35,019 nucleotides of DNA from Truepera sp. bin119 (lineage in GTDB: Bacteria > Deinococcota > Deinococci > Deinococcales > Trueperaceae): positions 1 through 35,019 of the forward strand of contig MPNL01000033.1 of NCBI GenBank assembly GCA_002239005.1. Direction: 5' to 3'. Positions 11,647 through 32,489 of the stretch are shown piece by piece. Below the pieces are notes generated by a model. It searched no databases, was not told the origin of the DNA, and saw nothing but the letters and a program-made list of their open reading frames with translations. The position numbers were made by a program, and so were the translations under genes. Position 1 is the stretch's first letter. The number at the start of each line of letters is the position of its first letter.

Positions 11647-12099
11647 CTATCGACGAGGAGCAGCTCGCTGAGGAGCGAATGGGACGACGAAGCCGTGAAG
11701 GGGGGGAACGGAGTCAAAGCGGATCGTGACCCCCTCCTCGATGGTGTTGGGGAGGGGATCGTGAACCCCGAGCACAATGGGGATTCCCACGTCGACGACA
11801 AGGGAGTTCCCATTACGGACGACCACCTGGCCTAAGGCTCTGATCTGGCTGATGGCCAGCACCTCGAGCTCCTCAGGGGCAGGCTCGACCTGCTCAACGA
11901 TCAGCGTCGTGGCGTTGATGATAACCCTCGCCTCACCAGCGACCGACTCGTAGGGTCCGGTTCGCTCCAGAAGGCTCAGGATCACACCTCCGGCCTGACA
12001 CTCAAAGAGGGGGCTGCCCTCGACCTTCGGAAAGATACGAACGGGGGCCACGAACGGGTGCCAGCGCTGAATAAAGGCGTCGACGGAGTCTTCAAACAC
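11647..12099 (-). CDS. Hypothetical protein, unknown
   Basis: 150 aa, no family recognised. It opens MFEDSVDAFIQRWHPF and has alternating hydrophobic strands through the middle and C-terminal half (ARVIINATTLIVEQV, GQVVVRNGNSLVVDVGIPIVLG), suggesting a mostly beta fold. There is no signal peptide or membrane segment, so it is probably cytoplasmic. The start is strongly supported: TAGAAT (12111-12106) is followed by 6 bases and a GTG, the leaderless pattern of this window. It faces away from the zinc-ribbon gene. It stands alone and its stop is about 100 bases from the radical-SAM gene start. Confidence 0.7.
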   Translation of the reverse strand: MFEDSVDAFIQRWHPFVAPVRIFPKVEGSPLFECQAGGVILSLLERTGPYESVAGEARVIINATTLIVEQVEPAPEELEVLAISQIRALGQVVVRNGNSLVVDVGIPIVLGVHDPLPNTIEEGVTIRFDSVPPLHGFVVPFAPQRAAPRR

Positions 12100-12111: not shown

Positions 12112-12165
12112 CCCCGCGTTCCCAACCTTGGTCAGGCGGACTCCGAATCCTCGACCCGCCTATGG

Positions 12166-12171
12166 TAGACT
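12166..12171 (+). promoter_or_regulatory. -10 element upstream of the zinc-ribbon gene
   Basis: TAGACT with TATGG directly before it (extended -10 character), followed 7 bases later by a GTG at 12179 that opens a 32-codon ORF. The transcript would start near 12178. Confidence 0.5.
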
Positions 12172-12178
12172 GACCCCT

Positions 12179-12277
12179 GTGAGGAATTCGCCATCTAGCG
12201 AGAGACGAACCCCGTCTGGCTACAGCCAGACGGGGTTTTCCACACAGACGAAGCCCGGTGTCGACAATGCTGGATAG
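12179..12277 (+). CDS. Possible leaderless leader peptide, 32 codons
   Basis: GTG at 12179 stands 7 bases after TAGACT. The frame runs through the hairpin at 12208-12237 and ends at TAG 12275-12277, just inside the zinc-ribbon gene. The peptide (MRNSPSSERRTPSGYSQTGF and 12 more residues) is serine-, threonine- and arginine-rich and matches nothing known. Its value, if real, would be regulatory: a ribosome starting at the 5' end would run into the hairpin. It could equally be an untranslated leader. Confidence 0.3.
   Translation: MRNSPSSERRTPSGYSQTGFSTQTKPGVDNAG
12208..12239 (+). terminator. Terminator-like hairpin in the leader of the zinc-ribbon gene
   Basis: A perfect 13-base-pair stem (AACCCCGTCTGGC with GCCAGACGGGGTT), a TACA loop, and a run of four T (236-239, two of them pairing in the stem). 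It has the form of an intrinsic terminator for rightward transcription, yet no rightward gene ends here. It lies between a candidate promoter (12166) and the start of the zinc-ribbon gene (12258/12267). It therefore looks like an attenuator or the 3' end of a short RNA of about 60 nt. Confidence 0.7.
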
Positions 12278-12965
12278 GCTCAACGATGTTCAAACCAGGG
12301 ATCTCAAGCTCGACAGCCTTCGCGGAGAGATGGACGAGGTCCCTTCAGACCTCGTAGCCGTCCGCCAGCAGAAGTCGGAACTCGAGGAGCACCTGCTGCA
12401 GAAGCGCAAGGAGCGGGAGGGGCTCCGCAGGAAGGTCAGTCAGAACGAGCTCGAGCTAGCGACCCTGGAACAGAGGCGCCGACTGACCAGCGAGGATGCC
12501 TTAAGGGCCAGCAGCCCCAAAGAGGCCTCTCAGTATCAGAATCGGGAGCTGCAGATCGCCGCCGAGCTTGAGGAGCTCGAGGAGGATACCCTCCCCCTCA
12601 TGGAGAGCCTCGACAGGGTCTCAGCGGAGGTTGGGGATCTAGAGGAAGAGTTGACCGAACTCGAACCGAACCTCCAGGCTCTAACAGAACAGGAGGAGGC
12701 GCGAATCGAGATGATCGGACAGCGTCTCGCCTCGGTGCGGGCCGAACGGGAGTCCCTCGCAGCCGCTATCGAAGCGAAACTGCTCAAGCAGTATGAGCAG
12801 GTGCGACGGGCTCGCCGAGGGATCGGCCTAGTGGAGATCCTGTCTGGCCAGACCTGCGGAGGTTGCAACATGAGACTGCCTATCCACGTAGTTCAGAAGG
12901 CGAGATCGGGCAAAGTTGTAACCCGCTGTCCCAGTTGCGGCAGGATCCTCTGGCATCGAGACTAA
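12267..12965 (+). CDS. Coiled-coil protein with C-terminal C4 zinc ribbon
   Basis: 232 aa from the ATG at 12267 (a GTG at 12258 is three codons upstream). Nearly the whole length to about residue 185 is heptad-rich, charged coiled coil (ELEEHLLQKRKER, ELEELEEDTLP, EVGDLEEELTELE). The C-terminus is a zinc ribbon with C197, C200, C221 and C224 (CGGC and CPSC). The family (zf-RING_7/CT398-like) is widespread in bacteria; nucleic-acid or flagellar partners have been suggested in some species, but no general function is established. No strong ribosome binding site precedes it. Its leader holds a promoter, mini-ORF and terminator-like hairpin. It converges with the LysM/M23 gene with a 7-base gap. 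Confidence 0.85.
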   Translation: MLDRLNDVQTRDLKLDSLRGEMDEVPSDLVAVRQQKSELEEHLLQKRKEREGLRRKVSQNELELATLEQRRRLTSEDALRASSPKEASQYQNRELQIAAELEELEEDTLPLMESLDRVSAEVGDLEEELTELEPNLQALTEQEEARIEMIGQRLASVRAERESLAAAIEAKLLKQYEQVRRARRGIGLVEILSGQTCGGCNMRLPIHVVQKARSGKVVTRCPSCGRILWHRD

Positions 12966-16515: not shown

Positions 16516-17605
16516 TCAATCCCGAGACCGCTCACGCGCCCGCCACTCGAGTCCAGCCCAGATGAGGCTTCCGATATCTCCGTCGAGCACCCGATCTGGA
16601 TCGTGACGCATCTCCCCTGTCCGGTGGTCCTTCACGTACCGCTTGTCCAGGACGTAGCTCCGGACCTGAGAACCCCACTCAATGGCCTTCTGTTCACCCC
16701 TCGCTCGCATCTGCTCCTCGAGGCGCCGCCGCTCTTCACGCTCCCAAAGCCTGCCCCGGAGCACGGTCATCGCCCTCTCTCGATTCTTAATCTGTGACTT
16801 TCCGTCCTGGCAGGTAACGACGACCTCATCCTCGGTGCCCCCCCGGTAGACGATCCGAACCGCCGAATCTGTCGTATTGACCGACTGACCACCCGGTCCG
16901 CTGGAGCGAAAGACATCGACCCGAAGGACCTTCGGGTCGATGTCGATCTGGATCCTGTCGTCGAGCTCCGGCAGGACCTCGACGGAGGCGAAGCTCGTGT
17001 GACGCCGTTTCTGCGAGTCGAACGGACTCACTCTGACGAGCCTGTGAACCCCTCCCTCGACATTGAGCAGGCCGAAAGCCCTATCGCCACGGACGATCAT
17101 CTGGGCATGGTCGACCCCGCCGGGTGCATCGCCGTTGGGCACGAGATCGATAATCTCGACACCGAAGCCCTGCCGCTCGGCGAAGCGCCGATACATGCGC
17201 AGGAGCATTCCGGCCCAGTCAGAAGACTCCGTTCCCCCCGCCCCGGGCTTCACGGTCACGATCGCGGGGCGGATGTCATGCGCTCCGTAAAAGAGGGTCT
17301 CCCGGTAGAGGGTACCGAGCTCCCCTTCGATTCGCGCCTGTTCGGAAGCGAGCTCCCCTTGCTCCTCGTCCGACGCGATTGCGAGGAGTTCCTGCAGACC
17401 CTCCACATCGTTCTCGAGGGTACGAAAGCCCTCGACAACCCGGCGCAGGCGGGTCGCCTCCTGGGTAAGAACCTTAGCCCGGTCGGGATCGTTCCAGAGC
17501 CCGGGGTCGTTCAGGAAGGAGTCGAGCTGTTCGAGTCGCGACTCCCTGCCGGCAAGGTCAAAGGTACCCCCGGAGTGCGTCGAGTCGTTCGATGATCTCA
17601 TGCAT
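16516..17605 (-). CDS. prfB: Peptide chain release factor 2, with programmed +1 frameshift
   Basis: RF2 reads UGA and UAA stop codons and triggers peptide release. The true start is the ATG at 17605, preceded by GGTGAGGTGA. The first 15 codons read MHEIIERLDALRGYL and end at an in-frame TGA (17560-17558). Slipping +1 on CTT-TGA-C continues with DLAGRESRLEQLD to the stop at 16516, giving a 362-residue product. The site GGGGGTACCTTTGAC matches the classical RF2 recoding site, including an internal Shine-Dalgarno-like GGGGG. The SPF codon-recognition tripeptide (about 193-195) and the catalytic GGQ (about 238-240) are both intact. The site provides autoregulation by RF2 level. Divergent from cdaA. 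Confidence 0.95.
17557..17571 (-). promoter_or_regulatory. RF2 programmed +1 frameshift site
   Basis: GGGGGTACCTTTGAC on the minus strand: Shine-Dalgarno-like G-run, spacer, CTT slippery codon, in-frame TGA and a following C. All elements of the Escherichia coli type site are present, with one synonymous difference (TAC instead of TAT). Confidence 0.93.
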
Positions 17606-31940: not shown

Positions 31941-32489
31941 GTGGACGGCCCACTAACCTCCCTCTGGCAGGTGATGACCTCGCCGAAGCGCTTCTTCCTC
32001 CGGCACACGCCGCGGCGGTCGACCCTGATCCGGGCACTCATCGCTGCGGCCAGCTCAGGGATGGTCGGGCTCTTGGCGGCAGGGGTCGCGCTCGTCCGGG
32101 CGCTCGGCAGCGACGACGCCTTCACGATCATGGCGCTGGTCATCCTGGGAGGTCTACCCTACCTCGCCCTGCTCTGGCTGCTCGGCGGCTTCGTCCTGAT
32201 GAGGCCTGCGGCGCTGGACCTCAGGGCCTGGGAGATCACTGCCTGGGCCTGGACACCGGCGGGGCTGGTCGGTCTGCTCCTCTCCCCGCTAGCCTGGTTC
32301 GTTCCCCTCGCCGGGCTGGTGCTCGGCTCGGTGGCGCTCCCGCTCTGGCACCTCATGGTGGTAAACGGTGCCCTCGGGGCCTGGTCCCCCACCCGGGCCC
32401 AGACCGCCCTCTTCTGGTACTTAGCGGCGATCTTCGCCCTCCCGACCGCCCTCCTGGCGGGGCTCTTCGCCCTGTTCACCTCCTCATAG
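31941..32489 (+). CDS. Yip1-family membrane protein
   Basis: 182 aa. The opening SLWQVMTSPKRFF is the usual amphipathic start of bacterial Yip1-domain proteins, followed by about five hydrophobic helices (around 35-55, 62-82, 95-120, 122-145, 155-180). The family is found in many bacterial inner membranes; its function is unknown. The longer frame from 31896 would overlap the mqnD stop and pass through the -10 TATAAC, so the leaderless GTG 31941 is taken as the start. It ends a few bases before ridA. Confidence 0.75.
   Translation: MDGPLTSLWQVMTSPKRFFLRHTPRRSTLIRALIAAASSGMVGLLAAGVALVRALGSDDAFTIMALVILGGLPYLALLWLLGGFVLMRPAALDLRAWEITAWAWTPAGLVGLLLSPLAWFVPLAGLVLGSVALPLWHLMVVNGALGAWSPTRAQTALFWYLAAIFALPTALLAGLFALFTSS

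Follow-up and report, generated by a model that had tools for sequence, protein, structure and literature searches.

A predicted leaderless mini-ORF and terminator-like hairpin conserved ahead of a CT398/HP0958-family zinc-ribbon gene in Trueperaceae

A large share of genes in Deinococcota is leaderless, and leaderless transcripts of Deinococcus deserti were reportedly predicted, in work by de Groot et al. in 2014, to encode attenuation leader peptides. In D. radiodurans, -10 motifs located 6-7 bp ahead of ORFs drive leaderless expression (PMC12340547). For mycobacteria, Shell et al. 2015 (PMC4633059) describe a coupled leaderless small ORF in which the primary sequence drifts while initiation and linkage are kept, and the polycysteine leaderless short-ORF attenuators reported by Canestrari et al. 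2020 and described in PMC9031893 form another mycobacterial example. A search of the literature on leaderless expression in Truepera found nothing relevant. The locus considered here lies in a contig of Truepera sp. bin119 (MPNL01000033.1, assembly GCA_002239005.1), of which the whole 35,019-nt stretch was analysed and is referred to as the window, and its features are collected in Table 1.

The leader in the window carries the Deinococcus-Thermus-type signature of a leaderless start, TAnnnT 6-7 bp ahead of ATG or GTG, with no convincing -35 element upstream of its extended -10. The original prediction had described a -10, a GTG 7 nt further on, a 13-bp stem with a T4 tract and an ORF running into the next gene, and all of these are present and correctly placed. 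The hairpin closes on a TACA loop (12221-12224), and the mini-ORF reaches 8 nt into the zinc-ribbon ORF before it stops. In sequence the element is a predicted intrinsic terminator, a GC-rich hairpin with a U-tract directly after it, and its absence from a generic terminator scan is explained by the threshold of that scan, which demands five T in eight. For the leader a folding energy of -44.5 kcal/mol was obtained (z = -4.6), which none of 200 shuffled sequences equalled. Perfect stems of at least 13 bp with a loop of 3-8 nt occur only twice in the 35 kb, the other one lying at 16912-16944 (the CATCGACCCGAAGGACCTTCGGGTCGATG region) within a peptide-chain release factor gene, whose coding sequence must accommodate it.

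Table 1. Features of the zinc-ribbon leader and its flanking genes in the window
Feature	Position	Strand	Details
Divergent neighbour gene	11647..12099	-	Unnamed, conserved; leaderless by signature (TAGAAT 12111-12106, GTG 12099)
Extended -10	12163..12171	+	TGGTAGACT (TG-G-TAGACT); TG 12163-12164, TAGACT 12166-12171
Predicted transcription start site	12178-12179	+	GTG 12179 is the predicted transcript 5' end
GTG start codon	12179..12181	+	7 nt (GACCCCT) past TAGACT
Predicted leaderless mini-ORF	12179..12277	+	32 codons, then TAG 12275-12277; passes through the hairpin
Hairpin	12208..12237	+	12208-12220 AACCCCGTCTGGC / 12225-12237 GCCAGACGGGGTT; 13 perfect pairs
T4 tract	12236..12239	+	Terminator-like tail; two of the four T inside the stem
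Zinc-ribbon protein gene, CT398/HP0958 family	12267..12965	+	PF24481 + PF02591; sits behind the leader

A strict form of the signature, TGnTAnACT-N6,7-GTGA, has four copies in the 3.2-Mb genome that contains the window. Two of them begin ORFs of 385 and 410 codons, one begins a 9-codon mini-ORF and one is the zinc-ribbon leader; the signature therefore marks leaderless starts. The 9-codon case (L179, G000:C32 ~32237-32255, minus strand), a second predicted leaderless mini-ORF in this genome, has a TGA that overlaps the following start codon (ATGA), and no hairpin lies between the two ORFs.

Conservation was assessed in the regions upstream of the zinc-ribbon gene in 37 Trueperaceae species. 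A common layout is present in 36 of the 37, from at least 15 genera, in which TAnnnT is followed after 6-8 nt by the start codon, typically GTG, after another 23-42 nt by a strong hairpin with a T-rich tail, and 17-90 nt later by the zinc-ribbon ATG. Its conservation over 36 species excludes chance for the layout. Both the TG and TAnnnT elements are near-invariant in these leaders, and the start codon is RTG in every one of them, with 34 GTG and two ATG (L030 and L098); when a single leader per genus is counted, GTG is found in 15/15. Positions 2 and 3 of the start codon each carry 2.0 bits across the 36 leaders, most spacer positions carry less than 0.5 bits, and the fourth base, directly after the start codon, is A in 29. 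Because the leaders were found by a pattern that itself includes RTG, the fair claim is that 36/37 regions contain the RTG layout; at other TAnnnT motifs in these regions, used as a control, RTG stands at the same spacing in 6 of 43 cases. The sole species without the layout, represented by L029 of genus g9, retains the -10 (TAGACT) and offers a natural knock-out for comparison.

A covariance model of the leader returns the leader locus as its top match in each genome that possesses one. The weaker full-length matches that were inspected (few, at E ~1e-3 and above) mostly belong to unrelated genes with an ordinary leaderless start, which have the -10/GTG part in common with the leader, and the idea of a dispersed repeat or regulon element was rejected on this basis. 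Among the families examined the leader is confined to Trueperaceae, where it always precedes the zinc-ribbon gene. In L163 and L182 of genus g6, a leaderless-type GTG ORF lies between the promoter and the secA start; it is found at these two loci of close species in one genus and not family-wide, and serves as a partial negative control, the start of secA having been recognised at no more than about half of the loci. Upstream of a gene that resembles tyrS, a name read from its translation only, L166 has a promoter with TAGACT, a TTG ORF that may be leaderless, a hairpin and, before the gene, a Shine-Dalgarno sequence, a layout resembling that of the zinc-ribbon leader.

The hairpin is conserved as a structure. 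Over 35 aligned leaders, 86.6% of the cells in a stem of 12 pairs are paired, and double compensatory changes are found at 11 of the 12 pairs. Cells with such double changes number 82, as compared with 25 in shuffles, none of which reached the observed count in 500 trials, and 17-24 in slid controls. Compensatory changes in the stem and retention of the GTG in relatives had been put forward with the original prediction as ways to check it, and both are strongly borne out. In the 12 nt past the stem the mean T content is 50%, and in the spacer it is 19% (Wilcoxon p 2e-7), with tails that are poor as terminators in a few leaders, such as L026 and L013. A spacing from GTG to hairpin in multiples of three (33, 36 and 42 for CTCCG-type hairpins) was considered and dropped, as the distance is 34 in L009 and off by one in L008.

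The spacer and the loop are not conserved in sequence among the 36 leaders, which bears on what kind of RNA the locus could produce. The original prediction had left two possibilities, an attenuator or the end of a small RNA of about 60 nt, and a promoter and a terminator spaced ~60 nt apart could indeed delimit a separate gene for an RNA that ends at the hairpin and acts in trans. Such a gene is very improbable in view of the unconserved spacer and loop, the fixed position and orientation relative to the zinc-ribbon gene, which it always precedes on the same strand, and the Rfam search, which gave no match above gathering score in the entire window. Of the two possibilities the attenuator is favoured, and a terminated RNA of ~60 nt would be a by-product of attenuation. 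The hairpin likewise does not belong to a gene upstream. As had been proposed, no rightward gene ends at it: the upstream neighbour is transcribed leftward and is divergent in the window genome and in 36/36 relatives tested, so that the hairpin cannot terminate an upstream gene in any of the 37 genomes, and this role was rejected. The divergent gene encodes a product of 150 aa that is present in all 37 Trueperaceae tested, shares 29-51% identity with the relatives' proteins, has no Pfam or NCBIfam match and always adjoins the zinc-ribbon gene.

The zinc-ribbon protein belongs to the CT398/HP0958 family, having both a coiled-coil hairpin (PF24481, CT398-like coiled coil) and a C4 zinc ribbon (PF02591), and in profile comparison it matches the solved HP0958, CT398 and MSMEG_4306 proteins, with 3na7, 4ilo and 5y05 at E ~1e-17. 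It scores under the cut-off of the NCBIfam CdsZ model. Comparison with all relatives sets the start of the gene at ATG 12267; the GTG at 12258 chosen by the ORF finder is not conserved and was rejected. No GGAGG-type Shine-Dalgarno sequence precedes this ATG in the window species, and in most Trueperaceae species the gene has a Shine-Dalgarno sequence of its own.

Homology to HP0958, CT398 and MSMEG_4306 raises the question of autoregulation, in which the zinc-ribbon protein would set termination in its own leader through the hairpin there or through RNA polymerase. HP0958 binds flaA mRNA, and RpoN and core RNA polymerase have been found together with CT398, so that both RNA and polymerase interactions are reported for the family (PMC5947703), and the hairpin always precedes this one gene and is not an element of a regulon. 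Against this, the stem and the loop vary in sequence from genus to genus, with hairpins such as CCCCGTC, CTCCGTTCG, CCCTCGCCC and GCCGTTTGG, which makes sequence-specific recognition of the stem unlikely, though this variation is compatible with an effect of the protein on termination in general. On balance, we regard autoregulation by the protein as improbable.

The conservation of the mini-ORF is largely that of its beginning. Each of the 36 mini-ORFs either runs through the hairpin or stays open until at most 12 nt before its base; 32 of them pass its centre and the other four end 1-12 nt before its base. This openness exceeds chance only weakly, with P 0.04 against shuffled sequences for one leader per genus and 0.002 for all leaders, and in the 36 leaders frame 2 is nearly as free of stop codons as frame 0; for these reasons openness is weak as proof of translation. 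The stop codon lies between -2 and +17 nt from the zinc-ribbon ATG in 29/36, a figure to be read beside another frame that is open about as often. Substitutions are spread evenly over the three codon positions (36:32:34), and single changes within genera comprise 37 nonsynonymous and 15 synonymous ones, on which grounds a conserved small protein was rejected. Given the similar openness of frame 2 and the even substitutions, sequence evolution does not demonstrate translation past the start codon. The start codon itself is invariant, save that its first base may be G or A, and the peptide drifts, which suggests that leaderless initiation has been kept under selection and the peptide has not.

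These properties also bear on a classical leader-peptide attenuator, in which ribosome stalling would sense one specific amino acid or tRNA. The order of the parts, from short ORF through terminator to the gene behind them, is indeed the usual one. The 36 leader peptides, however, share no codon runs, their substitutions are even by codon position, the spacer pairs with either arm of the stem no better than a shuffled spacer does, leaving no antiterminator above chance, and the zinc-ribbon gene is not biosynthetic. With neither peptide nor spacer conserved and with no regulatory codons or antiterminator, the leader is not of the classical amino-acid type, a reading to which we give hardly any weight.

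We favour, with a probability of about one half, a cis-acting 5' leader of the zinc-ribbon gene whose hairpin is opened by a ribosome that then passes on to the zinc-ribbon start. Transcription would begin at the GTG, a 70S ribosome would start at the 5' GUG without a Shine-Dalgarno site, and the intrinsic terminator would form ~30 nt downstream of this GUG. If no ribosome follows, the polymerase would halt near +60 and release a short RNA, and a ribosome translating the mini-ORF would occupy or melt the 5' arm of the hairpin and thereby allow the polymerase to read through. As it would end the mini-ORF at or near the zinc-ribbon start, the ribosome could then re-initiate there, which would matter most in the window species because its zinc-ribbon start has no clear Shine-Dalgarno sequence. 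What counts would be the act of translation and not the peptide. Such a mechanism fits a start codon that is kept, a peptide that is not, and ORFs that reach or cross the hairpin, and the leader is probably a built-in switch on the amount of zinc-ribbon protein. The transcription start site, termination at the hairpin, translation of the mini-ORF, its coupling to read-through and re-initiation are all predictions from the DNA sequence.

Timing is the main demand that this mechanism makes. With the terminator complete ~60-65 nt from the start, and no conserved pause hairpin seen in the leaders, a ribosome would have only a second or two in which to load. If none loads in time, the hairpin acts as a throttle of fixed strength, and the role of the start codon is limited to translation of the full-length mRNA. 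The leader would then be a plain partial terminator that constitutively reduces the output of a strong promoter into the zinc-ribbon gene, with mini-ORF translation irrelevant to read-through and the GTG kept because ribosomes that load at the 5' end stabilise the mRNA or are delivered to it in this way. The kinetic difficulty of translation-coupled antitermination so near the start points in this direction, as do the lack of an antiterminator and a hairpin and U-rich tail that are conserved as structure and not as sequence. A throttle alone leaves the invariant start codon unexplained, given that the zinc-ribbon gene has its own start and mostly its own Shine-Dalgarno sequence, and we consider it rather unlikely that this is all the leader does.

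Should translation indeed control the hairpin, the leader would point to tight control of a CT398-family protein and would be a simple natural reporter of leaderless initiation in Deinococcota. As only the 5' start codon and the terminator are conserved, and no peptide, codon or ligand, it is conceivable, if rather unlikely, that what the leader senses is leaderless initiation as such, with zinc-ribbon expression reporting how easily 70S ribosomes start on leaderless mRNA. If so, the ancestral leaderless start of the gene has been turned into a sensor.

This origin is suggested by the orthologues outside Trueperaceae, which come from Thermus, Meiothermus, Calidithermus and relatives in the same order, with no Deinococcus among the named relatives. 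At 52 of these 54 loci, TAnnnT-N5..8-RTG directly begins the zinc-ribbon coding sequence, and no hairpin was seen between signature and coding sequence in the sequences read. The direct leaderless start in these relatives indicates that Trueperaceae kept the ancestral start while the gene moved behind the hairpin. On the simplest account, the leaderless start would have become the start of the mini-ORF in the Trueperaceae ancestor, with the coding sequence displaced behind the hairpin.

Regulation of a downstream gene by a leaderless short ORF is known already in mycobacteria and is reportedly predicted in Deinococcus deserti. The D. deserti leaders belong to the same phylum, reportedly have the same leaderless start signature and have likewise been proposed to act by attenuation. 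Attenuation of the trp type shares with the Trueperaceae leader an ORF and an intrinsic terminator ahead of a gene, and the Trueperaceae leader differs from it in having neither an alternative antiterminator helix nor sensor codons. The coupled or overlapping leaderless small ORFs of mycobacteria (PMC4633059) are alike in their leaderless RTG, in a peptide that drifts while initiation is kept, and apparently in a short ORF that closes at or just within the downstream coding sequence, read in a different frame; unlike these, the Trueperaceae leader has in its short ORF an intrinsic-terminator hairpin with a U-rich tail, and throughout the family it is tied to a single gene. In the polycysteine attenuators, as described in PMC9031893, a leaderless short ORF similarly controls the gene behind it, whereas the Trueperaceae leader has no regulatory codons or conserved peptide and its downstream gene is not a biosynthetic operon. 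What sets the Trueperaceae leader apart is a predicted terminator fixed inside a leaderless ORF that has no regulatory codons, that precedes one gene throughout a family and that derives from the ancestral start of that gene, a conserved case in which an ancestral leaderless start has been kept for a mini-ORF and the real coding sequence has moved behind a terminator.
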